In this document: piece after piece, positions 9,652 to 33,834 of the stretch
Layout of the letters: the number at the start of each line of letters is the position of its first letter
How positions within the stretch are numbered: position 1 is the first letter of the stretch
Source: Sphingomonas jatrophae
GTDB taxonomy: Bacteria > Pseudomonadota > Alphaproteobacteria > Sphingomonadales > Sphingomonadaceae
Assembly: GCF_900113315.1 (NCBI RefSeq)
Contig: NZ_FOZG01000002.1
Coordinates: 248,001-312,000 of the forward strand
DNA: 64,000 bases
Reading direction: 5' to 3'
The notes under the pieces: generated by a model
Seen by the model: only the letters and a program-made list of their open reading frames with translations
The model's database searches: none
Told to the model about the DNA's origin: nothing
Position numbers and translations under genes: made by a program

Positions 9652-9709
9652 CGTGGCGCCCCAGCTTGATCCGGAGCCAACGACCTAGGCCGCCCGCGTC
9701 GCCAAGCGG

Positions 9710-10123
9710 TTAACGCCCGGCGATCAGCGCCGCCGGATTGATACGGAGCGCGAGCGCGCCGCCGACGGGCACCACCGCATCGGCCACGCCTGCCCACGCG
9801 GCCGCGAGCGTGCCCCGCACCGGCTCCGGCGGCCCATCCGCCTCCGCCACGTCGTCCAGCGCATCCACGGTGAGGGCATAGGCCGCCCCCTCCACCTCGA
9901 CCACCACCGCCTCGCGCCGCTCGCTCGGCGGTGCCGGCGGCAGGCCGATCGCGGCGCGGCTGTCGATCACCGTCAGCACGCGGCTGCGCAGCGCCATCAG
10001 GCCGAGCAGGTGCGCAGGGCCGCGCGGCACGGGGGTGAGCGCGTCCAGCTCGATCACCGACTCCACCGCAGCCGCCGGCAAGGCGATGCGCTGGCCGTCG
10101 ATGGCGACGATCAGGTGCAGCAT
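9710..10123 (-). CDS. cheW: Chemotaxis coupling protein CheW
   Basis: The 137-residue product is a CheW domain (IALPAAAVESVIEL, LGLMALRSRVLTVID) that links receptors to CheA. I chose the ATG at 10123, one base after the cheA stop (TGA-C-ATG), which gives the usual CheW N-terminus. A longer frame begins inside cheA. The product is slightly short for the family (about 150 residues). It is followed 58 bp later by cheY. Confidence 0.9.
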   Translation of the reverse strand: MLHLIVAIDGQRIALPAAAVESVIELDALTPVPRGPAHLLGLMALRSRVLTVIDSRAAIGLPPAPPSERREAVVVEVEGAAYALTVDALDDVAEADGPPEPVRGTLAAAWAGVADAVVPVGGALALRINPAALIAGR

Positions 10124-10124
10124 G

Positions 10125-17004: not shown

Positions 17005-17083
<79 letters not shown>

Positions 17084-17124
17084 ATCCGGAAACCGCGGTT
17101 TTCTGCGGTCTTCCACGGACCTGC

Positions 17125-17154
17125 TGTAGCAGGTTCTGTAGCGAGCGTTGTAGC
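17125..17154 (+). repeat. Three TGTAGC repeats beside attL, probable integrase arm sites
   Basis: TGTAGC occurs at 17125, 17137 and 17149, exactly 12 bp apart, 42 bp inside the island from attL. A matching cluster lies beside attR at 33715-33744. Phased short repeats near attachment sites are typical of arm-type binding sites of tyrosine recombinases. The rest of 17155-17294 shows no gene. Confidence 0.6.
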
Positions 17155-17294
17155 GTGTGAGCAAACTCCAGTGCCTTGCGTGCAGCGGCGCTGTGGAAAG
17201 GGATCTCTTACCTAGGCCATGGTAGTTTCTGTTCGCGGCCCGCTGAACATCATATAACGGTCTTGCAGACGGTGGCGCACGGAGCAGATGGACG

Positions 17295-17945
17295 ATGGTA
17301 GAAGGCACGAGGTTCGCGTGGATCACGAACGACTCGCTGCCCCGCTCGAGTGCGGAGTGGGATCGCGAGATCCTACGTAGCGAGCGATTTGTGGCCGTGC
17401 CATCAGCCGGCGCACTCGCGCCGGGCTGGACGCTTGTCGTGCCGCGTCGGCCTCTTTTGAACCTCTCTGAGACGAACCTTGCCGAGCGCGTGGAACTCGC
17501 CGCCATTGCCATCAAGGTGGCGGACACCCTCTCGAAGACGGGCAAGGAGGTGTTTTGTTTCGAGCATGGTAGTCGGAAGCCAGGAGGGCTCGTCGGGTGC
17601 GGCGTTGACCAAGCGCACCTGCATATCGTTCCACTGCCATTTGACCTGATCGAAGCTGTCACAAGTGCCGCCGACTCAGGGATCGAGTGGGAGGCTCCAG
17701 TAGCCTCCACTACGCCGTTTGATCAGCCGCCAGTTGAGGGAGACTACATACTCCTATGGCGGATGACCGATCACCAGACCATGGTGGGAAAAATGCGTCG
17801 ACCAGAGTCGCAGTGGGTCCGTCGCATCATCGCGAGCGAGCTGGGGATCGGACCTGAATGGAACTACCGGACGCATCCTCAGAGGCACAACGTGCGAGAG
17901 ACGCTAACAATGCTCGGGGAGCTGCGCTTCAACACGACTCGATAG
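17295..17945 (+). CDS. HIT-superfamily-like protein, first gene of island three-gene unit
   Basis: The 216-residue product contains GVDQAHLHIVPLP near residues 104-115, resembling the HIT-family HxHxx active site preceded by a Gly-rich strand (HGSRKPGGLVGCG). HIT proteins hydrolyse or transfer nucleotides through a histidine-AMP/NMP intermediate. The protein is longer than simple HIT hydrolases (about 110-150 residues), with an extra C-terminal region ending near residue 216. The ATG at 17295 sits about 220 bp from attL. Its 3' end overlaps the next gene. The substrate is unknown; nucleotide chemistry is inferred from the motif. Confidence 0.7.
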   Translation: MVEGTRFAWITNDSLPRSSAEWDREILRSERFVAVPSAGALAPGWTLVVPRRPLLNLSETNLAERVELAAIAIKVADTLSKTGKEVFCFEHGSRKPGGLVGCGVDQAHLHIVPLPFDLIEAVTSAADSGIEWEAPVASTTPFDQPPVEGDYILLWRMTDHQTMVGKMRRPESQWVRRIIASELGIGPEWNYRTHPQRHNVRETLTMLGELRFNTTR

Positions 17946-18571
17946 CGTCGGGCAATCAGTCGCCGCGCGAGCGCGAGGACAACAAGCTAGACCATCGTCC
18001 GCTTGGCGGCTGGACCAGCCGTTACGGCGCGCGAGCTTGGTGCCAGATTAGTGCCGAGTTCGTCTACCTTGTTGCCTCACTCCTCGTATGCGCCGGAGGC
18101 CTAATCTGGGTGGCCTACCACGTAGGCCCACCCGCACCTCTCGACAATCGGCCGATCCATCTACTGGGCGTCGACTTTGTATATCCTCGGGATCGCAACT
18201 TCCTCCTGTGGATGTCTGTCGGACTTAGCGGAACCGTGGGCGGCTCGTGTTTCGCCCTGAAGTGGCTCTACCACTCGGTCGCGAAAGGCTTGTGGAACCA
18301 AGATCGCCTCCTTTGGCGTCTAATCGTGCCCGTGCTTTCCGGGACCGTCGCGGTATTCGCCTCCATGCTCGTCGCGTCAGGCCTCCTCTCGCTCATCGAC
18401 ACCAAGTTTTTCTCGAGCTTCTATGGCGCAGTAGGCACGGGATGGCTCATCGGCTACTTTTCAGACAATGTCCTCGCCTCTTTGCAGAAACTCGCTCACA
18501 AGTGGTTCGGGACGGTTGATGAGCCAAAAGGGAGCAGCGGCACAACAGTGACCAGCCGTGAAACCGCGTGA
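17858..18571 (+). CDS. Four-helix membrane protein, second gene of island unit
   Basis: The 237-residue product has a charged cytosolic-looking N-terminal region of about 65 residues and four hydrophobic segments (EFVYLVASLLVCAGGLIWV; FLLWMSVGLSGTVGGSC; LIVPVLSGTVAVFASMLVASG; SFYGAVGTGWLIGYF). No family is recognised. The first ATG gives an 88-bp overlap with the HIT-like gene in another frame; a later start would shorten only the polar N-terminus. Its stop overlaps the next start as GTGA (18568-18571). In a defence context a membrane protein beside nucleotide enzymes could be an effector, but that is inference. Confidence 0.65.
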   Translation: MELPDASSEAQRARDANNARGAALQHDSIASGNQSPREREDNKLDHRPLGGWTSRYGARAWCQISAEFVYLVASLLVCAGGLIWVAYHVGPPAPLDNRPIHLLGVDFVYPRDRNFLLWMSVGLSGTVGGSCFALKWLYHSVAKGLWNQDRLLWRLIVPVLSGTVAVFASMLVASGLLSLIDTKFFSSFYGAVGTGWLIGYFSDNVLASLQKLAHKWFGTVDEPKGSSGTTVTSRETA

Positions 18572-21078
18572 GAATCGGGCCGACAGAAGCTCTAGTCCAC
18601 AACAAGCCGCGGCTGCCCGGCCTGCTGCTACATCCAGGACTGGCCCACGCGCCAGCGAGCACCCAGTTTGACTACTTCACGACTATCTTACATTACGGCA
18701 CCAAGGTAGCCGGACTTCAGATCCTTCCGCCGGCGTGGGTGCCGCCATATGTCGCTCTCCCCGCATGGCTTTCTCAGGAGTGGGCGAATGACCCGGCAGC
18801 GTGGAAATCACGTCTAGATCGTAAAAAGATAAGCCTCGGCGAGGCACTGCGACTCGTTTCTGACAACGGAAGCATTGCAGTTATCGTGCGGTCCAGCGCG
18901 GTCGGTGAAGGACTTGAAGATCGCGGCCTCTACAAGTCACTGCGCCTAGAAGTAGGGGCGTCGGTGGCCGATCTCACAGCGGCCATGGAGACAATCTTCA
19001 GGCACTTCTCGGATCGAGCGCGGCATAGCGGCATGGGCATATGCATCCACCGCTACACTGCGCCTGATCTTTCCGGCCATGTTTCAAACGAGGTGCATCT
19101 AAGCGCCACTCGCAATCAGTGGAAATACTTCATAGAAGAGCCACTCTTCTCTCCAGAGCGTGGATTGAACTCGAAGTTTGCGCAGGCGCCAGACGAGCAG
19201 ATTAATCTAAATCTTGCGTCTCCGCTTAAGGTTGGAGGAGTGCTTCGCAGGGTTTGCCATTGGATTAATGTTCGAGTGGGTGGACGATCCCACCTAGAAT
19301 GGTGCGCGTCCAACGGCAAAGTTTGGATAGTTCAGCTTGATCAGGAGAGTCCTACGTCCGCTGGGGCAAACCCCCATGTGATGCCGTCGCTGCGCCACGC
19401 AGAGGAAAGCACGTCACGTTCCGCTCATGGAGACATTTTTACACTTTATAGAGTTCAAGATGACCCACCTTGGCGAAAGCTGCGGAACATTAGAGACTTC
19501 TGGACGGGCTCAGAGCCGCCCCGACATCAGTTGTTCTTCGCGGGCGGCGATGAGCTTGCGGCATTGCTCGTGCGAGAAGACGGTGCGGCCGCACTCGCAA
19601 GCGAGATTGATCGGCTGACAGGCGGTCGCGCCGTCTTACGAACCGACTGCAAAGACCCGAAGGTGAAGTCCTTTAATCTACCTCGCACCCACACGGTCAA
19701 TGGCGAGACAGCTGCAAGATGGGTCAGCCAGACCCTTTCCGATCTAAGCTCAGGTGGTGTGGCGCAAGACGACATTGCGATCATCGTGCACCGATACATT
19801 CCTGCCCGCGCCGCAGCTTGGTCGTATTACTCCCCAGGGGACGACATCGTGCGGGTTGATTGTCTCTGGGGCCTGCCTGATGGCCTCCAGTTTCTTAGCC
19901 ATGACTCATTCCAGCTTGATGCACGCACCGGGGAGGAGCTTGCAGCCGACGTTCGCTTCAAACCAGACTTCCTTCAGGAGCAAAACGACGGCAGTTGGCG
20001 CTACGTTCAGGTTGCAAGGCAATACGGTCGGGATCGAACGCTGTCGAGGGAAGCGCTACGCTTTATAGCTCTTGAGACAGTATCAATAGCTCGGAAGATC
20101 AAGGACCGAGCGCAAGTCATGTGGTTTTGCGATCTACCAGCCACGCTCGGCCTCGGGCAGCACTTACCTTGGTATCGCTCGCGAGAGTTTGTCGGCTTTG
20201 AAGCCGCCAAGCGCCCGCCTCTCCCTACATGCAGAGTTCGCAACGAGACAGATCTCAACACCGCATCCTTGCGCCAAGACAGATTTATCATATGGGTTGC
20301 ACCTGAAGTTGAGCTAGTACGAGATGATGACCGATTCCTTGATAGGGTTATACTTCTCGCTCAAACTCGCAGCTTACCAGTTGAAGTAGCTGGCTCGGTG
20401 CTGGGCCACGCATATTACCGCCTACGTGCGGCGGGCATCTTAGTTCTCGTGCCTCACCCTAAGTATCCGCGTGTGCGAGGGAGGCATCGACATTACAAAG
20501 TTGTTCGCGACGCGATTCCTCAGAGTATCGCCGCCAAAGGTGAGCGTGTGAGCGCTGCTCGACTCTCTCGAGGCGAAAACAGAGCTGCCCTGATCGGTAA
20601 GCTATTTGAGGAAGGTCTTGAACTCAGCGCTGCCGCAACACTCCCGGAACAGCTGGAGGAGCTTTCCGACGTTCTCGAGGTGGTGCGAGGGCTTGCCTCT
20701 ACCAGCGGCATCGAATGGGAAGATTTGGTCTCCGCAGCTACCGAGAAGCGTCTGAGACGCGGCGGGTTCGAGCACCAAACCGTCCTGCTCGAAACGGCGC
20801 GACCGATGCCGAGCCCGGTGCGCGCCGATAGCGTGGTCAACCAAGAGAGCCAGCCGTTGATTCAGTTGCGAGACCTCGGAGCTGTGCATGTCGAAGGAGG
20901 CAACGCTTCAATCTCCTTCTCCAAGCTTTTATCCAGCAGCGGTCTCGAGGTTGAGCTCACGGTCGAGGGCCGCCCCATTAGCCTAGCGGTTGCTCTTAAA
21001 GGAGCTGGCTTGCGGTTGGTAGCCAGCGGCCCTCAGCGCGCGGAGGATGAGCCAGACTCACAGCTTCCTCTTTTCTAA
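18568..21078 (+). CDS. PEP-synthase-like ATP-grasp protein fused to MazG-like pyrophosphohydrolase
   Basis: This 836-residue protein starts at a GTG overlapping the previous stop. Around residues 104-180 it resembles the PEP synthase/PPDK nucleotide-binding domain (VIVRSSAVGEG, then SGHVSNEVH). A second similar part lies around residues 400-510 (IIVHRYIPARAAAW, CLWGLPDGL). Residues about 643-745 match MazG-like NTP pyrophosphohydrolases: VVRDAIP, then metal motifs ExxE (in EEGLE) and ExxD (in EELSD), then the RGGFE ending. I see no phosphohistidine swivelling domain. Likely activity is ATP-dependent phosphoryl or nucleotidyl chemistry plus NTP hydrolysis. Codon use is visibly more AT-rich than in the flanking chromosome. 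Confidence 0.7.
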   Translation: MRIGPTEALVHNKPRLPGLLLHPGLAHAPASTQFDYFTTILHYGTKVAGLQILPPAWVPPYVALPAWLSQEWANDPAAWKSRLDRKKISLGEALRLVSDNGSIAVIVRSSAVGEGLEDRGLYKSLRLEVGASVADLTAAMETIFRHFSDRARHSGMGICIHRYTAPDLSGHVSNEVHLSATRNQWKYFIEEPLFSPERGLNSKFAQAPDEQINLNLASPLKVGGVLRRVCHWINVRVGGRSHLEWCASNGKVWIVQLDQESPTSAGANPHVMPSLRHAEESTSRSAHGDIFTLYRVQDDPPWRKLRNIRDFWTGSEPPRHQLFFAGGDELAALLVREDGAAALASEIDRLTGGRAVLRTDCKDPKVKSFNLPRTHTVNGETAARWVSQTLSDLSSGGVAQDDIAIIVHRYIPARAAAWSYYSPGDDIVRVDCLWGLPDGLQFLSHDSFQLDARTGEELAADVRFKPDFLQEQNDGSWRYVQVARQYGRDRTLSREALRFIALETVSIARKIKDRAQVMWFCDLPATLGLGQHLPWYRSREFVGFEAAKRPPLPTCRVRNETDLNTASLRQDRFIIWVAPEVELVRDDDRFLDRVILLAQTRSLPVEVAGSVLGHAYYRLRAAGILVLVPHPKYPRVRGRHRHYKVVRDAIPQSIAAKGERVSAARLSRGENRAALIGKLFEEGLELSAAATLPEQLEELSDVLEVVRGLASTSGIEWEDLVSAATEKRLRRGGFEHQTVLLETARPMPSPVRADSVVNQESQPLIQLRDLGAVHVEGGNASISFSKLLSSSGLEVELTVEGRPISLAVALKGAGLRLVASGPQRAEDEPDSQLPLF

Positions 21079-21135
21079 TGGCCTCTGAAGTGGGTAGGAA
21101 AGATTTGGAACGCTGGCGGTCATGCCATCGGCGCG

Positions 21136-21294
21136 CCTATGGATGGCAGGCAGCCGAAAGCCCACGCCTGATCGGCAGCACCCGGGTGGCCTACTCACCC
21201 GTTTTCTAGGACTTCTCTTGACGGTAGGTTGAAGCGGCGTGGATGGCGATCATGTCCCTAGCGAACGGTAGACGCTTGCACGTCCGATTCCGAG
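21136..21294 (+). repeat. Direct repeat copy 1 with resolvase C-terminal remnant
   Basis: This segment aligns along its whole length with 26336-26495, the two copies flanking the helicase gene. On the minus strand the right end encodes KRLGIGRASVYRSL and a stop, the last residues of a serine resolvase, and then RHPRRFNLPSREVLENG, also matched in copy 2. The remnant continues to about 21350 in a shifted frame. The rest of 21079-21550 (470 bp) shows no intact gene. Confidence 0.75.
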
Positions 21295-21550
21295 CCGCTT
21301 GGCCTGTTTGACGAAGCTTGAGCGCGTCCCTGTGAGCATCCCAAGCGTCCGGCTGGGGTGCATCGGCCGCTGCCAAAGGGCTGTTTCGGTCTTTTCCTTC
21401 TACAAAGACCGAGCCATGCTGACGTGGGGCGGCGATCATCAAGTCGATTGCGTTCGCTGGGGGAGGCTGCATGAGCGATGGTGGTGGTGCCGTGAGCGAA
21501 CGGTTCGAGCATTTGATTGATATGGTTAGCACGCTCGAGAACGCAACACG

Positions 21551-24500
21551 ATGACGACGACCGCTACCGCTCCTTCTACTTCATCTGCTGATCCCACCCG
21601 TCGCGCCGTCCAACGCCTTTTTGACGAAACCCGTCGACGGCTGGTCGAGACGGGCACGCGCAACCGGCTGGTGCACGTCAATCGGGCAAACACGCGCGGC
21701 AACGTGGTCAACGTCATCAACGAGCGATCGGACGACGTCTATGCGATCCTGTCCGGCGGTCGCGCCATGCGTTTCCGTGCGCTTGGCCACGATCGGCATG
21801 CGGCTGGCGAAGTTGTCTTGGCCGATGATCACGACGACGCGATTGGTGAAGGGCGCTACACCGACAACCAGCTTGAGACGCGGCTGGGACCCGACGCGCT
21901 TGCCAAAAAGCTGCTGAAGATCGCGCGCGAGGCGAAGACCGCCGAGGAGGAGCAAGGCGTCAACATCCTCTACCTGGCGCTCGGCTTCGCAACATGGTTC
22001 GAGGACAAGACCTCCGATGTCCCTCGCGAAGCCCCCCTGGTCCTGCTCCCGGTCGAGCTCAAACGCAACGAACGCAGCTCCACCTACGAGCTCCGCGTTC
22101 GTGACGAGGAGGTGATGACCAACCTGCCCCTTCAGCAGCGTTGGGCAGACGACTTCGGCATCAAGCTGCCCGAGATCGACGTGGCGGAAGAGAGCTGGCG
22201 ACCATCGGACTACCACCGTGAGGTAGAAACCATCGTTGCCAGTCGGCCGGACTGGCGTATCGATCGGGACGCCATCCAGCTCGGCTTCTTCTCCTTTTCC
22301 AAGCTCCTCATGTATCGAGACCTCGCGCTTGATGCGTGGCCGGAAGACGAGCTTGGTGCACACGAACTGACGCGGGGACTTCTTTACGAGGGTTTTGAGC
22401 CCGAGCGCCCGCTGTTCGGGCCTGACGACCGACTCGACGTTGTTCTCCCGCCCGAAAAGATTTTTCACGTCGTGGACGCGGATGCCAGCCAGGCCAAGGT
22501 GATCGAGGAGGTTCGTGCCGGCCGCAACCTGGTGGTTCAGGGGCCGCCCGGCACTGGCAAGAGCCAGACCATCACCAACATCGTTGCGGCGGCAGCGAAG
22601 GAAGGGCGCACCGTCCTGTTCGTGGCGGAGAAGATGGCCGCGCTATCAGTAGTCCACGACCGGCTGGTAAAGGTCGGCTTGCGCGACCTGATCCTGGAGC
22701 TGCACAGCCGGACCGCGAACAAGAAGGCCGTGTTGGGTGAGCTCGCGCGGACGCTGCTGGCGGGGCAAGCCGTTCCGGGTGTTCCGAGCGCCCCCACGGA
22801 GCTCCGCGAGGCCCGTGATCGGCTGAATGACATAGCCGCGGCGTTGCATCAGCCGATCGGCAAGTCCGGCGAAACAGCATATACTGTGCTCGGCCGCCAG
22901 GCTCGGCTCGTCGGTGCAGGAACGCCCCCGCCGACACTTGATGCGTCCACCCTCGTAACCATGACGCGCGCCGAAGAGGACGTTGCGGTTGCGGCGCTCG
23001 CCCGGTTTGCGGCCCTGATCGAAACGGCGGGCGCACCCGAGCACCACCCTTTTGCAGGCGTGGGCGCGCTCGATCTACAGCCAGTGGCGCTGACCCGATT
23101 GGTGGACGAGCTGCGGCGTGCCGGGCAAGCTGCTGATGAGCTCCGCGCCGCGCTCGACACGCCGATGACCGCGTCCAATGTGGCAGGACCGCGAGCCGCT
23201 GACCAAGTGGAAGCGGTTGCCGATCTGCTTAGTCGGTTGGGAGGGCTTGCGCCTGACGACCGCCCCCTTGCGGAGCGCCTGATCGACAATCGCGATCTTG
23301 CCCGCCTGACCGACGCACTGGACGCGTCGGCGGCCTGGCAGAAAGCCCGCGAGGCAGCGCGGCCCGCCTTCGTCGACGCGGCGTTCTCGACCGAAGTCGG
23401 CCCTTTGCGTGCGCCGCTGGTTGCTGGGGCAAGCTCGTGGTTCGCGCGCTGGGGGTCCGCCTATCGCGGGGCCTCGCGGACGTTGGGTGGGCTGCTGCAC
23501 GCAGCGCTGCCCAAGCTGCCCGAGGAACGGCTGGGCCTTGTTGACCAGCTTTGCGACGTTCAGTCGCAGCGGCGCTCCTGGGCAGATGACGAGGCATTCC
23601 TGGCCTCGTCGCTTGGGGACAGCTGGCGCGGCGAGAGAACCGACTTCGCCCGTGTCGCCACCGTCGCACGCTGGTGCGCCCGGGCGCGTGGCGGTGCGAT
23701 GTCTGTCGCGGGCGACCGGCTCATCGCGCTGGCGTCCGAAACGGCACGCCTCTCGCAGATGGTTGAGGCGTTACGACGTGGCGCGGCGGAGATCACTCTG
23801 CTCGAAGCAGTTTGCCGCACGCTGGCCCTCGCGACAGATCACGCTGCGGCTTCGGCCGAAGCCGACCTTGCTATCCGAGCCGCTCGCTTTTCTGCCATGG
23901 CGGACTCGATCGATCGTTATGGCGAGTGGACCGCTCTATGCCGTGCTCGCGAGGCTATCGAGCGGATCGGCCTTGAGGACTTGGCCGCCCGGCTTGCCGA
24001 TGGCACCTTGGCCGCCTCGGCAGCCGCAGACGAGCTGCGGTTCGCCCGTGCGGAGCGGTTGTGGGACGAGGCGTTGGCCCACAACCCTGTGCTGGCGTCG
24101 TTGCGTGGGCTGGATCGTCACGCGCTAGCGGCCGACTTCACCTGGCTGGAGCGCCGCCGTCTCAAGGAGAACGTCACCACTATTCTCGCCGGCCACCTGG
24201 AGCAGCTGCCACAGGGCGCGCAGGGGGAGATGAAGACGCTGCGTGGCGAGATCGGCAAGAAGCGTGCGCACATGGCATTGCGGCGCCTGTTCAGGGAAGC
24301 GCCGGCAGCGATCCAGCGGATCAAGCCCGTCCTTCTGATGAGCCCGATCTCGGTGGCGCAATATCTCACGCCCGGCACCCTCTCCTTCGACCTTCTCGTG
24401 ATCGACGAGGCGAGCCAGGTTCGCCCGGAGGATGCGCTGGGTGCCATCGCACGCGCGCGCCAGATCGTGGTCGTCGGCGACCAGAAACAGCTTCCGCCAT

Positions 24501-26248
24501 CGTCCTTTTTCGATCGGCTGCTCGCGGACGACAGCGGCGAGGGGGCGACGGACGAGCCGGAGGAAGACGCCGAGGATCTGCTCGGCGGTGCAGCCTCGCT
24601 CGGTGAGCTGGAGAGCATCCTGACGCTGTGTGAGGCGCGTGGCCTGCCCTCCCGCATGCTGAAGTGGCACTATCGGTCTCGCGATCCGTCGCTCATGCGC
24701 GTGTCCAACGCCGAGTTCTACGAGCACGGCCTCGTCCTGCCGCCATCGCCATTAGAGAAAGATCCCGGCTATGGCCTCATCTTCACGCAGGTGAACGGTG
24801 CGTATGACAAGGGCGGGCGCCGCGACAATCGGCGGGAAGGCGAGGCGCTGGTCCGGCGCGTCGCCGAACATGCGCGATTGACGCCGGATCTCTCGCTCGG
24901 GATCGTCACCTTCAGCCATGCGCAGAAGAACACGATTGCCGAGCTCCTCGAACTTGCCCGCCGCTCGGACACAGCGCTTGACCGACTGCTACGTGAGGGC
25001 AGGCAGGAGGACGTATTCGTCAAGAACATCGAAAACGTGCAGGGCGATGAGCGGGACGTGATCCTGATCAGCGTCGGCTATGGCCCGACCGAACCGGGCG
25101 GTCGCATGATCGGTGCGAGCTTCGGTCCGGTCAACGGCGAAGGCGGCGAGCGCCGCCTCAACGTGCTTTTCACCCGTGCGCGGCTCCGCTGTGAGGTGTT
25201 CGCTTCGTTCGATCCGTCGGCCCTCGATGTAAGCCGAGCATCGCGTGAAGGACCGCGCATCCTGAAGCGCTTTCTCGACTACGCCAAATCCGGGCAGATG
25301 GACGAAGCGACAGTCACGGGGATGGCCGCGGACTCGCCCTTCGAGGAAGACGTCGCGGAGGTGATTCGCAGCCTCGGCTACCTCGCTGATCCACAGGTGG
25401 GGTCGGCCGGCTTCCGCATCGACATCGGCGTGCGCCACCCCGATCAGCCGGGCACTTACCTGCTTGCCGTGGAATGCGACGGTGCCGCCTACCACTCCGC
25501 GCTATGGGCACGGGAACGCGATCGGCTTCGCCAGGATGTGCTGGAACACCTCGGATGGCAGTTCCACCGAATATGGAGCACAGACTGGTTCTACGATCGC
25601 CGCAGCCAGATTGAGCGGCTGCGCTCAGCACTGGAGACGGCGCGCGACGCCGCCGGCAAGCCGGTGGCTATCGCGGGCTCGAACGACAGACCGATCGTTG
25701 TTGAGAGTGTGGCGGAGGTAGAGTCGTATGTCCTGCCCGAGCCCGCGGCTCGGGCCATGCCACCTTACGTCCGCGCGCAGCCGAGGGCTACAAGCGCTGC
25801 TGAACCGCATGAGGCTCCACTTGCGACTTTGATCCCGCTGGTGCGGCAAGTCGTAGAGATCGAAGGCCCTGTCCATCTGGAAGAGGTCGCACGACGCATC
25901 GCTGGCGCGTTCGGCAAGAAGAATGCGGGCCGCAGGGTTCTTGCGGCGACGCGCAATGCGCTAAGCGCCGCGCGCCGGACAGATCCCGTGCTACGGCTTG
26001 ATGACGACTTCTGGTTCACAGCTGGGCAAGCAGCCGCCCCGCCCGTGCGCGATCGCTCAGCCGAAACCGGCGCGACCTGTAAGGCGGATATGCTGTCATT
26101 GATCGAGATACGGGCGGCCCTAACCTTGGCGCGCGAGGACAATCCTGGAGGCGACAGCGAAGACCTCGTCAGAAGCGCCGCACGTCTGCTTGGATTCCGC
26201 CGGGTCGGACCTGAGATTGCGGCGCGTCTTCGCGAAGGCCTTAGCTGA
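21551..26248 (+). CDS. DUF4011/SF1 helicase-nuclease-DUF3320 protein, probable phage defence
   Basis: The 1565-residue product has a DUF4011-like N-terminal region (LVETGTRNRLVHVN), an SF1 helicase with Walker A QGPPGTGKSQT near residue 331, Walker B VIDEASQ near 950, GDQKQLPPS near 975 and C-terminal helicase motifs (LNVLFTRARLR). Next comes a Vsr/MTES_1575-type nuclease around residues 1260-1350 (RIDIGV, AVECDGAAYH), then a C-terminal DUF3320 segment. Proteins of this build are found in defence islands, and DUF4011-helicase-Vsr proteins have been reported as antiphage (the Hhe type, from memory). It lies alone between the two resolvase-remnant repeats. Confidence 0.85.
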   Translation: MTTTATAPSTSSADPTRRAVQRLFDETRRRLVETGTRNRLVHVNRANTRGNVVNVINERSDDVYAILSGGRAMRFRALGHDRHAAGEVVLADDHDDAIGEGRYTDNQLETRLGPDALAKKLLKIAREAKTAEEEQGVNILYLALGFATWFEDKTSDVPREAPLVLLPVELKRNERSSTYELRVRDEEVMTNLPLQQRWADDFGIKLPEIDVAEESWRPSDYHREVETIVASRPDWRIDRDAIQLGFFSFSKLLMYRDLALDAWPEDELGAHELTRGLLYEGFEPERPLFGPDDRLDVVLPPEKIFHVVDADASQAKVIEEVRAGRNLVVQGPPGTGKSQTITNIVAAAAKEGRTVLFVAEKMAALSVVHDRLVKVGLRDLILELHSRTANKKAVLGELARTLLAGQAVPGVPSAPTELREARDRLNDIAAALHQPIGKSGETAYTVLGRQARLVGAGTPPPTLDASTLVTMTRAEEDVAVAALARFAALIETAGAPEHHPFAGVGALDLQPVALTRLVDELRRAGQAADELRAALDTPMTASNVAGPRAADQVEAVADLLSRLGGLAPDDRPLAERLIDNRDLARLTDALDASAAWQKAREAARPAFVDAAFSTEVGPLRAPLVAGASSWFARWGSAYRGASRTLGGLLHAALPKLPEERLGLVDQLCDVQSQRRSWADDEAFLASSLGDSWRGERTDFARVATVARWCARARGGAMSVAGDRLIALASETARLSQMVEALRRGAAEITLLEAVCRTLALATDHAAASAEADLAIRAARFSAMADSIDRYGEWTALCRAREAIERIGLEDLAARLADGTLAASAAADELRFARAERLWDEALAHNPVLASLRGLDRHALAADFTWLERRRLKENVTTILAGHLEQLPQGAQGEMKTLRGEIGKKRAHMALRRLFREAPAAIQRIKPVLLMSPISVAQYLTPGTLSFDLLVIDEASQVRPEDALGAIARARQIVVVGDQKQLPPSSFFDRLLADDSGEGATDEPEEDAEDLLGGAASLGELESILTLCEARGLPSRMLKWHYRSRDPSLMRVSNAEFYEHGLVLPPSPLEKDPGYGLIFTQVNGAYDKGGRRDNRREGEALVRRVAEHARLTPDLSLGIVTFSHAQKNTIAELLELARRSDTALDRLLREGRQEDVFVKNIENVQGDERDVILISVGYGPTEPGGRMIGASFGPVNGEGGERRLNVLFTRARLRCEVFASFDPSALDVSRASREGPRILKRFLDYAKSGQMDEATVTGMAADSPFEEDVAEVIRSLGYLADPQVGSAGFRIDIGVRHPDQPGTYLLAVECDGAAYHSALWARERDRLRQDVLEHLGWQFHRIWSTDWFYDRRSQIERLRSALETARDAAGKPVAIAGSNDRPIVVESVAEVESYVLPEPAARAMPPYVRAQPRATSAAEPHEAPLATLIPLVRQVVEIEGPVHLEEVARRIAGAFGKKNAGRRVLAATRNALSAARRTDPVLRLDDDFWFTAGQAAAPPVRDRSAETGATCKADMLSLIEIRAALTLAREDNPGGDSEDLVRSAARLLGFRRVGPEIAARLREGLS

Positions 26249-26335
26249 AAAAGGTATGGAGCCGCCGTCTTCCCACCAGCGCTGGTGAGTCTCGCACGCT
26301 ACCCACCCATGATGCCGCCATGTTTCGTTCCACAC

Positions 26336-26495
26336 GCCTGTGGATGGCGGGCAGCGGGGGAAATATGGCTCATCGGCACCATCCGGGTGATGTGGTCGCC
26401 CGTATTCGAAGACTTCGCTTGACGGCAGGTCGAAGCGGCGTGGATGGCGATCACGTTCCCAGCGCACGATAGACGCTCGCACGTCCGATCCCGAG
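26336..26495 (+). repeat. Direct repeat copy 2 with resolvase C-terminus
   Basis: This is the partner of 21136-21294, with about one change every six to eight bases by eye. It includes the last codons of the resolvase fragment at 26451-26789 and a minus-strand open stretch (RHPRRFDLPSSEVFEYG and onward) that stays open for about 70 codons here but is cut by a stop in copy 1. Copy 2 begins 88 bp after the helicase stop codon. Confidence 0.75.
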
Positions 26496-26789
26496 ATGCT
26501 TGACTATCTCAGTGGCACCCAAGCCCTGCTTCCGGAGCGCCCGAGCCGCATCGATCTCGACCGAAGGTTTGCGACCCTTGTAGACACCAGCGGCCTTGGC
26601 TTTTGCGATTCCCTTCATCTGCCGTTCGCGGCGTAGGGCTGTCTCGAACTCGGCGAACACGCCCAGCATCTGGAGGAAGGCCCTACATGCCGGCGTGGAC
26701 GTATCCACTGGCTGCTCGGTCGCCTTCAGGTATGCTGAGCGGGGCGGATGCGCGATCAGCAGCGACATAGCCGCGCTTGCCGTTTTCAA
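26451..26789 (-). pseudogene. Serine resolvase/invertase, C-terminal fragment
   Basis: The 112-residue frame matches the C-terminal two thirds of small serine recombinases: VDTSTPACRAFLQMLGVFAEFE, then RRERQMKGIAKAKAAGVYKGRKP, then a helix-turn-helix ending IVKHLGIGRASVYRALGT. The catalytic N-terminal domain, with the active-site serine (normally YxRVSxxxQ), is missing and the first 20 residues are unrelated, so it cannot recombine DNA alone. It is a relic of the element that brought the adjacent helicase cassette or was broken by it. Confidence 0.85.
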
Positions 26790-27233
26790 CCATAAAAAGC
26801 TGAAAGTCCATCAACTTAGCACCAACTTCCGTCAACCTTGCCCCGTTTTTGACACCTGGCTCAAAGCCGCAGAACTCCTGAGTTTTCCAGACTCTTCCGT
26901 GTAGGGCAGAAATGTCGCGGAGCGTGCGAGATGATCTCGCGTGCCCTTTCGACCCGTATCTTGACGCTAAAGCTCCGGCCGGCGCTCAGGTTCGCGCCGC
27001 TGCGGCGTTCGCCAGCAAGTCGCCCAGATAGCCCGCAAACAGGGGCTAGGGCATCGCAGCGGGCGCAGGGTCAGGATAGCCCTGCGGTCCTAAGAACATC
27101 TCTGGCGGCTTGTTGCGGCTCGCCACGTTGGCCAGTGGAGTCGCCGAGCGGCATCGACGATCAAAGCGGTTGTCCCCGCCTTCCACAGCCATCCAGCCTT
27201 GCTAGGTTGTTCGTGATATGTTCACAGCGGTGC

Positions 27234-27799
27234 ATGGGAGCGAACAGCCGACCAAAGGCGATTGGCCACTTCGCCTGGCGCGACGCAGACGTTGGCGTGG
27301 AGTGCCTTCGCTGGGGCTTGATCTCCGTCTATTGTGACTTCGAGGTTTTCGCCGGCTTTCGCGAGCGCGGATGGTCGGTAGCAGCTGACGACGCCATCAA
27401 GCGTTTCCGATGTAGCTGCGGGAGCCATGACGTGCGCTTCCATCCCATTGCAATCGGCATGCGGCCCAAGCCAATCCCCTCGGGACCGGAGCCCCTGCGA
27501 CCGATCTACCGAGAAGACGCGCGCAGCCTTCGGCGACGTGGCTCAACGGCATCTCCCGAACAAAGGGCAGTCGACACAGCTCTCGCAACGCTGGAGCACG
27601 CAATCTTAACGGTCGCTACGGTGGTGAGCAGGTCGCTCTCACGTCGGTCAAGGCAGCACTCGATGTGCTGCGGCCGCATTGCTATCGTCAGGAGGATGTC
27701 GACGCCTTCGTGGCCGAGCTGGCGAAGCTCGGACGATTGCATGGTGGCCATGCCGACACAGCGCTGGTCGGGATCAGGCGTCAGCTGGGTGTGAAGTGA
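27234..27799 (+). pseudogene. Possible frameshifted gene remnant
   Basis: In frame from 27234 the sequence reads like protein to about 27530 (FAWRDADVGVECLRWG, RFRCSCGSHDVRFHP). From about 27536 the coding-like signal moves to the next frame (GARNLNGRYGGEQVALTSVKAALDVLRPHCYRQEDVDAF in pieces), ending at a stop at 27799. Two open frames joined end to end suggest one gene with a frameshift, or two relics. No family is recognised. The preceding stretch 26790-27233 shows no supported gene. Confidence 0.3.
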
Positions 27800-27808
27800 T
27801 CCAGTGGC

Positions 27809-27839
27809 TTGACCCTGTAGCTACTACAGGCCTTATCGA
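27809..27839 (+). promoter_or_regulatory. MerR-type metal operator/promoter
   Basis: A -35 box TTGACC (27809-27814) overlaps a perfect dyad CCTGTAG-CTA-CTACAGG (27814-27830) that fills the spacer before a -10-like TTATCG/TATCGA (27833-27839). The 18-19-bp spacer and central dyad are the hallmark of promoters controlled by MerR-family metal regulators (PbrR/CadR/ZntR type). It lies 44 bp before the TonB receptor start, and the merR gene is downstream in the same operon. Confidence 0.85.
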
Positions 27840-27882
27840 CAGCGCCAACGGCAGATGATGTGGCTTGGCATAGGGGTGTGGC

Positions 27883-29853
27883 TTGCAAGCTCGCTGGCAA
27901 AATCGTCTATCAGCTGCCGTGGCCATCGCGCCCGTCGTCGTGGTGCTCGGGCCTGCGGCAGAGGCGCAGAACAGACCTCCCGAAGTTGAAGCCGAGGAGC
28001 CCGAGGAGATTGTCGTTCAGGCGACGCGCAGCGGCCGCCGCGTTCAGGATGAGCCGATCCGCGTTGAGGTGCTGAACCGCGAGGAGATCGAGGAGAAACT
28101 CCTGATGCGCCCCGGCAACATCGCGATGCTGGTGAGCGAGACGCCTGGCCTTCGCGTGCAGACGACCTCGCCGGGTCTGGGCGCCGCGAACGTCCGCGTG
28201 CAGGGGTTGAAGGGGCGCTACACCCAGATCCTTGCGGATGGCCTGCCGCTTTATGGCGGTCAGACGCCGGCGCTCGGCCTGCTCCAGATCGCCCCGACCG
28301 ACCTACGACAGGTGGAGATCATCAAGGGGGCCGCGTCTGCGCTCTACGGTCCCTCGGCGTTGGGCGGCGTCGTGAACCTAGTGTCGCGCCGACCGACGGC
28401 CGAGCCGCAGGGCGAGCTGCTGTTGAACGCGACCAGCCGCGACGGCCAGGACGTGACCGGCTATGCCGCGGCTCCCGTCACGAGTGCCCTCGGCGCATCA
28501 TTGACCGCGGGCCTCAACCGGCAGGATCGCCGCGACATCGACGCCGACGGCTGGGCCAGCCTGCCGGGCTATCGTCGCTGGACACTGCGTCCGCGTCTAT
28601 TCTGGGAAGGGGCGAGCGGGGCCGAAGCGCTGCTGACCGTCGGGGCTCTAGGGGAGCATCGTGCCGGCGGCACGCTGCCGGGACGCACGGTCGCAGATGG
28701 CAGCGCCTTTCCCGAACAGCAGCGCAGCCGGCGCTACGACGCGGGGGTGAACGCCCAGCTTCCCGTCGCCGGCTGGGCGACGCTCCACCTGCGCATGTCT
28801 GGCGTCACCCAATCGCACCGGCGCCGCTTCGGCGACGTCGTCGAGCACGATCGTCACCGGACGCTGCTTACCGAGGTATCACTTGGTGGCGGACAAGGCG
28901 CCACGCGCTGGCTGGCAGGCGCCGCTTACCAGAATGACGCCTATCGCTCGCGCACGTTTCCGGTGTTCGACTATAGCTACCATGTGCCGGCCCTCTTCGC
29001 ACAGGCCGAGCACACCCTGGCGTCGCGCCTCACGCTCGCAGCGAGCGGGCGCGTCGACGACCATAGCGATTATGGCACGCGGTTCAGCCCTCGCCTTTCC
29101 GCACTGTTCAGACCCGGTCCTTGGACCTTGCGCGCATCTCTCGGCCGCGGCTTTCATGCGCCGACTCCGTTCGTGGAAGAGATCGAGGCGGCCGGCCTTT
29201 CGCGGCTGGAGCCCCTACGCGATCTGCGGGCCGAGACCGCTGACAGCGCCAGCATCGATGTCGGCTATGCACGCGGCCCGGTCGAAGGGAACGTAACGCT
29301 GTTCGGATCGGACATCGATCATGCCGTTCAGGTGCAGGACGTGAGCAGCGACCGCGTCGGGCTGGTCAACGCCGCGGGCGTCACCCGCACCCGCGGGGCC
29401 GAGCTTTTGCTGCGCTATCGCTGGCAGGCAGTGACGCTGACCGGCAGCTATGTGCATACCGACGCACGCGAGCCGGACCCGGACAGCGGTGGGCGCCGCG
29501 CGGTGCCGCTGACCCCGCGTGATACGGCCGGATTAACCGCGGTGTGGGAGCGGCACGGCCGCAGCCGCTTCGGCCTCGAAGCCTATTACACCGGCCGCCA
29601 GTCGCTTGAGGACGATCCCTACCGTTCTCGGAGTCGACCTTACTTCCAGCTTGGCGCGATGGGCGAGATCATGCTGGGCCGTGCCAGCCTGTTCCTCAAC
29701 GCGGAGAACCTGCTGAACGTGCGCCAAACCCGCTACGCCCCGCTGCTGCGCCCTCGCCGGGCTCCCGACGGCGCTTGGACGGTAGACGCCTGGGCGCCGC
29801 TGGACGGCTTCACCGTGAACGGCGGTTTGCGGCTGCGGTTCGGCGCTGAGTAG
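27883..29853 (+). CDS. TonB-dependent outer membrane receptor
   Basis: The 656-residue product starts at a TTG at 27883 with AGGGGT upstream. A signal peptide ends at AEA-QN. A plug domain follows (EIVVQATRSGRRVQDEPIRVEVLNRE, IKGAASALYGPSALGGVVNL in pieces), then a 22-strand-type barrel ending with an aromatic-poor terminus (GLRLRFGAE). Such receptors take up chelated metals or other scarce compounds across the outer membrane using TonB. The MerR-type operator upstream and merR gene seven bases downstream suggest metal-dependent expression. The substrate cannot be named. Confidence 0.92.
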   Translation: MQARWQNRLSAAVAIAPVVVVLGPAAEAQNRPPEVEAEEPEEIVVQATRSGRRVQDEPIRVEVLNREEIEEKLLMRPGNIAMLVSETPGLRVQTTSPGLGAANVRVQGLKGRYTQILADGLPLYGGQTPALGLLQIAPTDLRQVEIIKGAASALYGPSALGGVVNLVSRRPTAEPQGELLLNATSRDGQDVTGYAAAPVTSALGASLTAGLNRQDRRDIDADGWASLPGYRRWTLRPRLFWEGASGAEALLTVGALGEHRAGGTLPGRTVADGSAFPEQQRSRRYDAGVNAQLPVAGWATLHLRMSGVTQSHRRRFGDVVEHDRHRTLLTEVSLGGGQGATRWLAGAAYQNDAYRSRTFPVFDYSYHVPALFAQAEHTLASRLTLAASGRVDDHSDYGTRFSPRLSALFRPGPWTLRASLGRGFHAPTPFVEEIEAAGLSRLEPLRDLRAETADSASIDVGYARGPVEGNVTLFGSDIDHAVQVQDVSSDRVGLVNAAGVTRTRGAELLLRYRWQAVTLTGSYVHTDAREPDPDSGGRRAVPLTPRDTAGLTAVWERHGRSRFGLEAYYTGRQSLEDDPYRSRSRPYFQLGAMGEIMLGRASLFLNAENLLNVRQTRYAPLLRPRRAPDGAWTVDAWAPLDGFTVNGGLRLRFGAE

Positions 29854-29860
29854 GAGGCAC

Positions 29861-30262
29861 ATGCTGACGATTGGCGATCTGGCGAAGGCGACCGCCACCA
29901 AGGTCGAGACGATCCGCTACTATGAACGGATCGGGCTGTTGCCCCGCCCGGCACGCACCACGGGCAACTATCGCTCCTATGGCGAGCCTGAGCTAGCCCG
30001 GCTCTCCTTCATCCGCCGCGCCCGCGATCTCGGCTTCTCGCTGGATCAGGTGCGGGCGCTGCTCAGTCTGTCGGATGATCGCGGGCAAGACTGTGCGGCG
30101 ATCGATCAGATCGCTGGCGAGCACCTCCGGGCCGTCGACCAGAAGCTCGCCGACCTTGTAGCGCTGCGCCGCGAGCTGAAAGCCGTGATCGACTCGTGCG
30201 ACGGCGGCACGGTGGCGGAGTGTCGGATGATCGAAGCGCTCGCGCCGTCGGCTGAGGCTTGA
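29861..30262 (+). CDS. MerR-family metal-responsive regulator
   Basis: The 133-residue product has the MerR winged helix-turn-helix (TIGDLAKATATKVETIRYYERIGLL), a dimerisation helix containing Cys (DCAAIDQI), and a C-terminal loop SCDGGTVAEC with two cysteines eight apart, as in CueR; the extra helix cysteine resembles ZntR/MerR. These point to sensing a soft or divalent metal ion. It is co-transcribed with the TonB receptor and probably acts at the operator at 27809-27839. Which metal it binds is open. Confidence 0.92.
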   Translation: MLTIGDLAKATATKVETIRYYERIGLLPRPARTTGNYRSYGEPELARLSFIRRARDLGFSLDQVRALLSLSDDRGQDCAAIDQIAGEHLRAVDQKLADLVALRRELKAVIDSCDGGTVAECRMIEALAPSAEA

Positions 30263-30357
30263 TGATTGGCACTGGGTAAAGTGCGGTGGGAGGCGCGTCC
30301 GCAGGCCGGACACCATCGACCTTCATCGTGCGGTGTCCAGCTGCCGGTTCGATCAGA

Positions 30358-30684
30358 TCAACGCGTTGGATGTTGGCCCTCGATGTCCTCGTCTTCGCCG
30401 GGGCGGCATATTCGATAGCCAACCCCCATGATGTAGCGGCCGATGCCCTCGATACCGCGGTCGCATGCCTCGCGGACAACTAGGCGTAGATGGCCATCGA
30501 GCTTCGAGCAACGCACCTCCTGGATGAGAAGGCCGCGAGATCGAACGCCGCGCCCGCGGCAGTCCTCATCATAGAGGCGCTGCGCTGTCTCCATGGTCCA
30601 GGCGAACATGACGGTGACATCGTTCCCACGCTCCCACGTCGCCCAAAACTTCGTTAACTTGGGCGTGTTGTGCTGATCGCTCAC
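30358..30684 (-). CDS. Hypothetical protein, island gene pair (second)
   Basis: The 108-residue product is unrecognised. It is a soluble protein with several Trp in the first half (FWATWERG, FAWTMETAQRLYDEDCRGRG) and Cys scattered through the sequence without a clear metal-site spacing. Its ATG overlaps the stop of the gene to its right by four bases, so the two are translationally coupled. Codon use looks like a real gene. No function is proposed. Confidence 0.6.
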   Translation of the reverse strand: MSDQHNTPKLTKFWATWERGNDVTVMFAWTMETAQRLYDEDCRGRGVRSRGLLIQEVRCSKLDGHLRLVVREACDRGIEGIGRYIMGVGYRICRPGEDEDIEGQHPTR

Positions 30685-30971
30685 GCCCGATCATCCCCAC
30701 CGAGTGACCAGTCGGCGGGTGCGATTAGCCATCCCGACTGGGGATCGAACGTCCCAATGCCCGCGAGCTCGGCGAGGACAGCCTCACGATGATGGCGGGC
30801 GTGCTGGTTGTCTTCGCCCCAGGTGCGCTCGACGACGCTGATGCGGGCCGGTGTCCGACCGTCATGGCACAAGCACCAGGCCATGAACAGGCTTGCAGCA
30901 TGGGGAATGCCGATAGCGAAGATCGTCGCCAGGTGAGTGCCTTCAGTGTCGGTGACGTCGAACATGAGCAT
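30681..30971 (-). CDS. Hypothetical protein, island gene pair (first)
   Basis: The 96-residue product is unrecognised. It begins MLMFDVTDTEGTHLATIFAIG and contains MAWCLCHDGRTPARISVVERTWGE. A second in-frame ATG lies two codons later. It is followed by the overlapping gene at 30358-30684, and both lie between merR and the Rep-like gene on the minus strand. No signal peptide or membrane helix is evident. Confidence 0.6.
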   Translation of the reverse strand: MLMFDVTDTEGTHLATIFAIGIPHAASLFMAWCLCHDGRTPARISVVERTWGEDNQHARHHREAVLAELAGIGTFDPQSGWLIAPADWSLGGDDRA

Positions 30972-31057
30972 GATCGTAAGAGCCTCGTCGTTGTTGCTGA
31001 CGAGATGATCATGCAGGGTGCGATCGAAGAGTGCGGGCGGCTTCTACCGCTTCAAGA

Positions 31058-31828
31058 TTATCCCTCAGTGACCAAGCCCCAAAAGGCTCTTGCGCCGCCG
31101 GTCATGGTGCGGGACATGGTAAACCGCTTTTCACGTAGCCTTGGGTCTGACCGCCGGGTGAACTTGAAAAGGTAGTCGATGTAGGCGGCCTGGAGCTTTC
31201 TGAACTTCCGACCATGTATCGCCCGAGGCACGGTGCTGTAGCCCTTCAGCCCGTGTCCAGCGGCGCGAGCAGCGGCCAACATGACCTTCTCTTCATCTCC
31301 CGCCTCGAACGTCGCAGCACCCCCATGTATGTGCAAGATGGTCGCGTCTCTCGTCCTTGTGCTCCAGCCCTCAATGACGAAGAACCAATCGAGCCTAGGA
31401 CGGACATGCCGATCGAACTCTCGCCGCAGTCGATCCCGCATCATGACCCGTGGGTCCTTGCCCTCAGCCACCCATCTACGTTCCAGGTCGGGATGGACAT
31501 GCATCGTGAAGGTTTGGAACGACCAGATCTCCAAAGTGAACACAGCCAGTTGGGCCTTCATCCACTGCGACAGGTCGTCCCAGTGCGGCATGGGGTTGCC
31601 GTCGGCCTGTTTCCTGACCGGAAAGGTTGTGAGCTTCGTGCCCTTGGGGTGGTCCAGCTTCCCAGCGTATACTGATAACGGCTCGAGCGGTTCACGGTGG
31701 AGCCCGTGTTGACGCTCCGAGAGATGGATGTGCAGCCGCAGAAGTCTGAGGATTTTACGGTCGCGATGAACCCGACGCGCCTCACGGCCGCGTCGAGCGC
31801 GGATTCCACTTTTTCCTCGTTGATTCAC
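31058..31828 (-). CDS. HUH endonuclease-like replication protein
   Basis: The product has about 256 residues from a GTG at 31828; the true start is uncertain because another frame is also open in the first 80 codons. Three segments match the motif order of rolling-circle Rep proteins: FQTFTMHVHP (motif 1), ILHIHGG (HUH metal site, motif 2) and AYIDYLFKFT (motif 3, with a tyrosine followed by lysine). Such proteins nick DNA at an origin. In an integrative element this could support replication after excision or mobilisation. The assignment rests on motifs only. Confidence 0.5.
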   Translation of the reverse strand: MNQRGKSGIRARRGREARRVHRDRKILRLLRLHIHLSERQHGLHREPLEPLSVYAGKLDHPKGTKLTTFPVRKQADGNPMPHWDDLSQWMKAQLAVFTLEIWSFQTFTMHVHPDLERRWVAEGKDPRVMMRDRLRREFDRHVRPRLDWFFVIEGWSTRTRDATILHIHGGAATFEAGDEEKVMLAAARAAGHGLKGYSTVPRAIHGRKFRKLQAAYIDYLFKFTRRSDPRLREKRFTMSRTMTGGARAFWGLVTEG

Positions 31829-31963
31829 AAGCCATTTCGCTGATGGGGCGCGGCGTCTAGGCCGTTCGCGAACGTCTCGCAAGCTAAGGCGATTATGGCG
31901 GACGAGAGCGCCATCCGCAACGCGCAAGCGATCACTGTCGCTAGCGCGCCGCTTGACTACAAG

Positions 31964-33691
31964 TCACCGACGACTAAGGAGATGCTCAAAATTGACCCCT
32001 TTAAAATGAACCTGCTCCATAACGGGCGCTAGAAACCGGACAGTGCCCTGGCGCACCGCACCGTAGCCCGCCGTTGTGCTTTTCTGATCGTGCCCCAGCG
32101 CAACCGCGATCTGGTCATCAACCAGCCCGACCTCCACCCGGAGCCGGTCTGCCAGTTCATGTCTGAAGCTATGTGCGCCTAAACCATCTGCGCCGGCCTT
32201 GACGCCAATGCGCGTGAGATAGTCGCGCCAGAACGCTGAGGGCTCGGCGCCGATCTGGTGGCGATTGTTCGCGACAAGCTCCGGGAACAAGCGGCAATCG
32301 CCGTCAGCCGCACGCCGGTCCTTCACGAACTCGATGAATCCAGCTTCCACGAGCTTCGCATGCGCCATCGAAGCGCGAGACTGCCCTGCCTTCGTCGTCT
32401 GCCCTTTCTCCGGCGCGTGCTGGATGTCTATGATCCACGCGCCGCTATCGTGCTGCGACACGTCTTCGGTGCGAAGCTGCGCCGCCTCGCCGACGCGCAT
32501 GCCGGTGAAGAGGCAAAGCAAGGGTATCCAGTATCGCCAATCGTTCGCGCGGACTTCGCCGGGGCTGTGCTCCTTGCCGTCGGCCTCGAACCCGGTGAAC
32601 AGAGGCGATGCCAGCACCTTGTTCAGCCTTTCCGTGCCAAGCGGCGGGCGCGGGTTCTTGCCGCGCACCTTATCGTGAAACAGGCCGGTGCACGGGTTCG
32701 ACAAGTCCCACCGTTCCTTGATGAGCCAAGCGAACAGCGGCGATATGGTGGATAGGTGCTTGTTCACCGTTGTGAGCGCCGTGCGGGGCATATCAGCGGC
32801 GCGGGCCTTCGCTGCCGCTTCCCGCATCGACAAGCCCCGCATATCGGCCCTGTCGCGCCATTTTGGCGGTAGCTGGCGCAAGGTGTCGCGGTACTCCCGG
32901 ATGTGCTCCGCCTTGATCGACGCTAGAGCACGATCGGCCCCGACAAACTCGACGAACTGCTCAATAACCTTACGATCTTGCTTGAGCGTGTCCTCGCGCT
33001 TGCGACCCTCGGCGAGGCGCTGTTCGGCATAGCGATCGAACAGGTCTAGCAACGCCTCGCCCGGCTTAGCCTTGTCCTGCTCACGCTGGCGCACGCGGGC
33101 AACCAGCGGGCTTTCGGCGGACGCTTCAAGGTCGCCACGCGCGCGCGCATAGCTTGTTTTCAGCGCTGCCATGCGCGCGGCACTCAGGTCGGTAAGGAAC
33201 TGGCGATAAGCCGAGGTGCCGGGTTCAAGGTCCAGCCCCATGCCGGCGATAATGTCCCTTGCCATCCCCTCAACAAGCGAGTGGTCGCCGGTCGTTGCCA
33301 ACGGTGTGAACGCGTTAAGCGCCGCCTCCGTGCGATGCATGTGCCGGCGCCACCCGCCGGGTTGCTGTCGGCGCATGTCGCTTTGCGCCAGCGCCTCGTC
33401 GTGCGCAAACTCTACGGCCAGCCCCTCCAGCTCCGCTCGGGATGGTGTCCGACGTTCTCTCGAGACCAGAGGCAGCGCGGCGAACGTCTGACCTCGCGCT
33501 GTGGCCCAATCCCGCTTCCACTCGTCCAGCACAGCCAATGCACGATCCGATGCGATGCAACGATCGGTCGTGCCCATGGACATGGTTCGCTCCTTGGGCT
33601 TGCCGGGGGCGTGGAGGGCACGCGGAATGGGCACGCGAAGCTGCCAGATGCCGCGCTTACCGCGCTTAACGAGGTAGGTCGCGAGGGACAT
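31964..33691 (-). CDS. Tyrosine recombinase/integrase of the tRNA-Pro island
   Basis: The 575-residue product starts at the ATG at 33691, giving MSLATYLVKRGKRGIWQLRVPIPRAL, an N-terminal domain common in this integrase group. The C-terminal catalytic domain keeps the Arg in LFTGMRVGEAAQL, the HSFRH box and LGHDQKSTTAGYG, with the nucleophilic tyrosine. It lies 123 bp from attR and reads inward. It should catalyse integration into and excision from the tRNA-Pro 3' end. No excisionase gene is evident. Confidence 0.93.
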   Translation of the reverse strand: MSLATYLVKRGKRGIWQLRVPIPRALHAPGKPKERTMSMGTTDRCIASDRALAVLDEWKRDWATARGQTFAALPLVSRERRTPSRAELEGLAVEFAHDEALAQSDMRRQQPGGWRRHMHRTEAALNAFTPLATTGDHSLVEGMARDIIAGMGLDLEPGTSAYRQFLTDLSAARMAALKTSYARARGDLEASAESPLVARVRQREQDKAKPGEALLDLFDRYAEQRLAEGRKREDTLKQDRKVIEQFVEFVGADRALASIKAEHIREYRDTLRQLPPKWRDRADMRGLSMREAAAKARAADMPRTALTTVNKHLSTISPLFAWLIKERWDLSNPCTGLFHDKVRGKNPRPPLGTERLNKVLASPLFTGFEADGKEHSPGEVRANDWRYWIPLLCLFTGMRVGEAAQLRTEDVSQHDSGAWIIDIQHAPEKGQTTKAGQSRASMAHAKLVEAGFIEFVKDRRAADGDCRLFPELVANNRHQIGAEPSAFWRDYLTRIGVKAGADGLGAHSFRHELADRLRVEVGLVDDQIAVALGHDQKSTTAGYGAVRQGTVRFLAPVMEQVHFKGVNFEHLLSRR

Positions 33692-33714
33692 GGACGGCTT
33701 CTCCGTGCAGATGC

Positions 33715-33744
33715 TGTAGCAACTGATAGCACCGCTGCTGTAGC
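33715..33744 (+). repeat. TAGC repeats beside attR, probable integrase arm sites
   Basis: TGTAGC at 33715 and 33739, with a GATAGC between at 33725, mirror the cluster beside attL; the outer copies are 24 bp apart in both clusters. The segment lies immediately upstream of the integrase start, so integrase binding here could also repress its own promoter. Confidence 0.55.
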
Positions 33745-33814
33745 ATGTGGAGTGAAAAACCGGAGAAAGCCGCGACTCCTGCGGACTCCTTGTCAAGGCT
33801 TACAATTGATTCTC

Positions 33815-33834
33815 ATCCTGTCTCCCCGACCATC
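33815..33834 (+). other. attR of the tRNA-Pro genomic island
   Basis: An exact 20-bp copy of the tRNA-Pro 3' end (ATCCTGTCTCCCCGACCATC) lies six bases beyond the end of the chromosomal gene at 33840-34616. Upstream tRNA sequence is absent here, so this is the distal attachment site, not a tRNA gene. Confidence 0.9.

Follow-up and report, generated by a model that had tools for sequence, protein, structure and literature searches.

A candidate anti-phage helicase-nuclease gene between two diverged resolvase tails in a mosaic tRNA-Pro island of Sphingomonas jatrophae

In this study, we analysed a 64,000-nucleotide stretch of the Sphingomonas jatrophae genome (the window) and observed two diverged direct copies of a 168-bp segment, each carrying the end of a small serine resolvase gene, with a probable anti-phage helicase-nuclease gene between them. 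The arrangement may well be the fossil of an accretion that joined DNA with the defence gene to a resolvase 3' end; we regard this explanation as the best available, with an even chance of being correct. Its main rival is that two independent resolvase remnants came to lie in a mosaic island. The features concerned are the following (window coordinates).

17005..17081, plus strand: tRNA-Pro (TGG), integration target of the outer island (ARAGORN)
17064..17083, plus strand: left att repeat of the outer island, ATCCTGTCTCCCCGACCATC, a 20-bp exact match to 33815-33834 (E 1.6e-5)
21134..21301, minus strand: left copy of the 168-bp repeat; a resolvase ends in it (last 16-17 codons with the stop, about 21250-21301), and a 3' non-coding flank follows
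21551..26248, plus strand: gene of a 1565-aa DUF4011 / SF1 helicase / Vsr-like REase (MTES_1575) / DUF3320 protein (Pfam, PADLOC)
26335..26502, minus strand: right copy of the 168-bp repeat (local alignment, ungapped comparison)
about 26454..26723, minus strand: small serine resolvase fragment (Pfam Resolvase 98-144 of 145, plus HTH_7)
31964..33796, minus strand: tyrosine integrase (DUF6538 and Phage_integrase), adjoining the right att repeat (Pfam, ORF list)
33815..33834, plus strand: right att repeat of the outer island, a 20-bp exact match to 17064-17083

The two copies of the direct repeat align without gaps (132/168 identical, 78.6%, 36 mismatches), lie 5201 apart in the same orientation, and were given the same bounds by two alignment scorings. 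Their local alignment score is 162 (the maximum over 200 shuffles was 42), and the pair is by far the strongest repeat in the window (blastn E about 2e-34). The repeat is real and far above chance. A sequence-only reading of this DNA had proposed two diverged copies, with coordinates within 2 bases (left) and 7 bases (right) of those found here, and had correctly recognised a resolvase C-terminus in each: on the reverse strand, the left copy encodes KRLGIGRASVYRSLGT and the right copy KHLGIGRASVYRALGT, both followed by a stop codon. It had described the segments as resolvase remnants. The tails are indeed present, but most of the repeat (about 115 of 168 bp) is the non-coding 3' flank that follows the last 16-17 resolvase codons in each copy, and the resolvase is incomplete on both sides. 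The longest identical run between the copies (22 bp, 21231-21252) begins at the stop codon. Identity along the flank is uneven, from 10/21 to 14/21 in its middle to 19/21 at its well-kept outer end. In the coding tail, seven of nine mismatches fall at third codon positions; the two tails thus diverged when their genes were still working, and the copies do not stem from a recent duplication. No inverted-repeat core of at least 8 bp was found in either copy.

The right copy runs on in frame into a truncated resolvase body that lacks the N-terminal two thirds of the catalytic domain (Pfam). To function, a serine resolvase needs its whole catalytic domain, in which the nucleophilic serine lies close to the N-terminus, and here only profile positions 98-144 of 145 remain. 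The right-hand resolvase is inactive. DNA similarity of this fragment to plasmid resolvases ends at about 26730. It is of a plasmid-borne kind, with matches in 491 plasmid records, and its best relatives are plasmid-borne recombinase family proteins in Methylobacterium, Azospirillum, Skermanella, Paracoccus and Sphingomonas. For the left copy, a resolvase profile was built from 13 database resolvases and the window's own fragment. The last 21 residues match it and nothing upstream does in any frame; the homology stops abruptly at about 21301-21303, and database resolvase DNA ceases to match at about 21303. Several other interpretations were rejected. An extension of the left resolvase under a frameshift ('...PDAWDAHRDALKLRQTGQ') had no profile support and weak tblastn matches only. 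A 120-aa antisense ORF through the right copy, which would make the repeat coding sequence, had neither a notable Pfam match nor a convincing plasmid match, and the mismatches in the flank have no codon phase. The repeat end CGCCTRTGGATGGCRGGCAGC as a transposon terminus had no inverted partner in the window at 0-2 mismatches, and its scattered 2-mismatch matches in the genome were only somewhat commoner than those of a reversed-pattern control.

The enclosed gene is intact and is the only recognisable gene within 21302-26334. Its domains are as the sequence-only reading had named them: DUF4011, AAA_11/AAA_12 (SF1), the MTES_1575 Vsr-like REase and DUF3320 (Pfam). The helicase motifs checked, including Walker A and Walker B, are intact (GPPGTGKSQT 331, DLLVIDEASQ 947, GDQKQLPPS 976, LNVLFTRAR 1203), as is the nuclease motif D...VECDG (DIGV 1291 / VECDG 1307). 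PADLOC assigns the protein to PDC-S37, a phage-defence candidate (E 0, 1748.9 bits), by a match of near full length (residues 19-1563 of 1565 on profile positions 5-1529 of 1550). PDC-S37 was not found by name in the literature searched, so we infer the antiviral function. Judged by family membership, the product probably acts on its own, as an ATP-driven helicase that has a Vsr-like nuclease fused to it and attacks invading DNA. A DUF4011 gene forms the right core flank of the defence hotspot cDHS1 in Pseudomonas aeruginosa (PMC10250203). A second, distant DUF4011 helicase-nuclease gene is present elsewhere in the S. jatrophae genome (G000:C4:504941-508393, L166; about 1842 aa, 33% identity).

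The bracketed gene lies in an outer island of about 16.8 kb (17064-33834), in which the end of the tRNA-Pro gene is repeated beside the DUF6538 tyrosine integrase. The proposal of an island within an island thus stands for the layout, and is not supported where it made the inner part a resolvase-linked element. Other cargo includes a TonB-dependent receptor (Pfam) and a MerR-like regulator (sequence inspection). Left of the repeat the island also carries a run of three genes (17295-21078). Their products are a HIT-domain protein, a protein of 237 aa that has no Pfam match, and an 836-aa near-orphan with weak resemblance to PPDK_N (N-terminal) and to PRA-PH/MazG-like proteins (C-terminal); possibly, this run is an unknown defence or nucleotide-signalling operon. 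Further right in the window, about 90 bp are repeated in inverted orientation with 75% identity (41698-41782 and 44000-44090).

It had been suggested that the defence gene was carried by, or inserted through, a resolvase-linked element, and that recombination between the copies could delete the gene. The searches did not bear this out. The non-coding part of the repeat has two copies only in this genome, and in 398 genomes of the family nothing was found beyond the coding tail and short pieces at chance level. Likewise, plasmids held no copy beyond the coding tail and phages no credible one, a search with an exact 22-mer found none in viral contigs and genome contigs, and the non-coding repeat had no further copy in any of the collections searched. 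No unit with matching junctions occurred at other sites or in other genomes of these collections, and none of them contained a one-repeat deletion product. No congener was among the genomes searched; the collections contain no relative with the repeat, and therefore neither a filled nor an empty site came to light. The neighbouring gene 18568-21078, sought as a marker of the empty site, is essentially an orphan (one weak match in 99 genomes), and a search with the tRNA-Pro flank matched only the tRNA itself in relatives. Loss of the defence gene by homologous recombination through the repeats today is unlikely because of their 21% divergence, mismatch repair and the 22-bp longest identical run, which is no longer than efficient RecA recombination usually requires. 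The absence of conserved junctions in other genomes had been named as one sign against the proposal, together with the repeats being parts of two unrelated resolvases; the first is what we found, and the second is not, the tails being homologous through the non-coding flank. Nothing shows that the resolvase moves or deletes the defence gene, and for the most part this is an ordinary mosaic island.

How, then, did the gene come to lie between two resolvase tails? In the explanation we prefer, the incoming DNA would have carried the defence gene together with its own diverged copy of the resolvase tail. Recombination inside the shared segment, by either site-specific or homologous strand exchange, would have linked it to the island where the 3' end of a resident resolvase gene lay. 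The resident gene would thereby have gained the incoming tail as its new end, and its own tail would have been displaced beyond the insert, to 21134-21301. At some point the N-terminus of the resolvase would have been lost, giving the present fossil arrangement. In a variant, a plasmid with a related resolvase would have formed a homologous cointegrate, and an extra deletion would be needed to remove the second resolvase. An insert that brought just the tail fits because the left end of the resolvase homology is sharp: the left copy is exactly the tail, and outside resolvases cease to match at the same point. Joining at a resolvase 3' end is further supported by the ungapped homology through the non-coding flank, by the layout, in which the resolvase body and one tail copy are followed by the insert and then by the displaced tail copy, and by the third-position bias, which points to two lineages that diverged as working genes before they met. 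The plasmid-borne kind of the resolvase also speaks for it, as does the finding that DUF4011 genes lie at unrelated sites elsewhere with the gene alone in common. Against it count the lack of any recombinase within 21302-26334 (ORF list, Pfam), the absence of an empty site, a one-repeat product or further repeat copies in the collections searched, and the lack of an inverted-repeat core. The repeat is also unlike most true att cores, which do not reach 168 bp and hardly differ from each other.

The possibility that has to be weighed most carefully is that related resolvase-bearing plasmids or elements accreted at different times and that decay or deletion left only their tails, so that the bracketing is incidental. 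Both copies are truncated and 21% diverged, G+C varies along the island from 0.56 to 0.69, and Pfam identified no recognisable gene from the resolvase fragment rightward to 27883, all of which favours this reading. The absence of bracketing repeats from the close homologues of the defence gene (62-68% identity; Novosphingobium L065, G033 and G026, Burkholderiales L066-L068) points the same way. However, the homology is exactly in register across coding tail and non-coding flank. Moreover, neither this genome nor the 398 family genomes has another copy of this resolvase type with this flank, and it would be a coincidence if two had arrived independently at places 5.2 kb from each other and with one orientation. 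We therefore hold this account to be plausible, short of an even chance.

The view that a resolvase-linked mobile element carries the defence gene and ends in the repeats is disfavoured and appears improbable. Direct repeats on both sides with a resolvase fragment beside one of them would suit it, as would the intact-looking small resolvases about 0.2 kb downstream of a DUF4011 gene at L149 (G439:C27, 4867-11502) and about 1.8 kb from that of L065. However, no transposase is present and the resolvase is inactive; the usual role of such small resolvases is to resolve plasmid multimers or cointegrates, not to transpose. The repeat was not found elsewhere, and DNA similarity among the close homologues is confined to the gene, with no common flanks and with unrelated sites in the other genomes. 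The stretch around L149 holds 29 other direct-repeat alignments. In G033 and G026 the homologue adjoins type I restriction genes, and at L091 (G026, 3896-9146) a DUF4011 homologue lacks its C-terminal end and has an IS3-type transposase directly behind it. A segmental duplication of one resolvase tail within the genome, followed by divergence, would account for two copies in a single genome, but is very improbable, as the third-position bias of the coding mismatches (7/9) is unexpected for a dead duplicated tail.

A survey of 50 DUF4011 loci (the window and 49 others) bears on several of these explanations. Serine recombinases of two types were searched for within each locus stretch, and lay near the DUF4011 gene in 6/50 loci, the window included, which speaks against the gene being carried by a resolvase-linked element. 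A direct repeat of at least 60 bp spans the gene in four loci (window, L093, L070 and L161), and only in the window and L093 does it consist of recombinase tails; the remaining 48 of the 49 other loci are not so bracketed, which counts against the explanation we prefer. At L093 (G110:C6), a distant DUF4011 protein (1607 aa) is encoded on the minus strand. A full 564-aa large serine recombinase (about 1136-2830, plus strand) lies upstream in locus order, and its 3' part recurs beyond the DUF4011 gene in a copy of 85% identity (10484-11387, plus strand). The geometry mirrors that of the window: recombinase and defence gene are convergent and a displaced tail is on the far side. The recombinase is unrelated to that of the window (large versus small serine recombinase), and L093 is thus an independent case of like geometry, which supports joining at a recombinase 3' end. 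This parallel was found after looking and was not predicted. A third, short copy of the recombinase 3' end lies in between (5219-5394); with three direct copies, one of them full-length, the stretch 1136-11409 looks like serial accretion. It is tempting to speculate that serine-recombinase 3' ends are recurrent att-like docking sites for single defence-gene cassettes, each arrival leaving a tail copy, with the window and L093 as two cases, but we consider this improbable: two cases in 50, in neighbourhoods rich in mobile elements, do not establish a rule.

In summary, a defence gene is embedded in a mosaic island together with what may be traces of the joining event. If docking at recombinase tails is true, it would offer a simple route for the growth of defence islands; the evidence as it stands is a fossil in one genome and one distant parallel.

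Compared with known systems, the outer island is an ordinary tRNA-anchored tyrosine-integrase island, with 20-bp att repeats, a terminal integrase and a duplicated tRNA 3' end. The 1565-aa protein shares its length and domain order with the single-gene PADLOC candidate PDC-S37, and no difference was found. It resembles the Hhe defence protein (PADLOC, 643 bits) in the helicase and nuclease region, whereas the Hhe model is longer (1911 positions) and its best stretch covers only residues 789-1350 of 1565. REases of the MTES_1575 type are Vsr-like, with a winged helix overlapping DUF3320 (PMC3710099); both regions also occur in the 1565-aa protein, for which Pfam reported no HEPN or transglutaminase domain, in contrast to that description. 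From elements that insert at a gene 3' end and supply a replacement 3' end, the present case differs in that the insert holds no integrase, the repeat is long and diverged, and the target is a resolvase gene. The geometry of gene body, replacement tail, insert and displaced tail is nevertheless alike, and here too the direct repeat is the 3' end of the target gene, with the replacement tail in frame.
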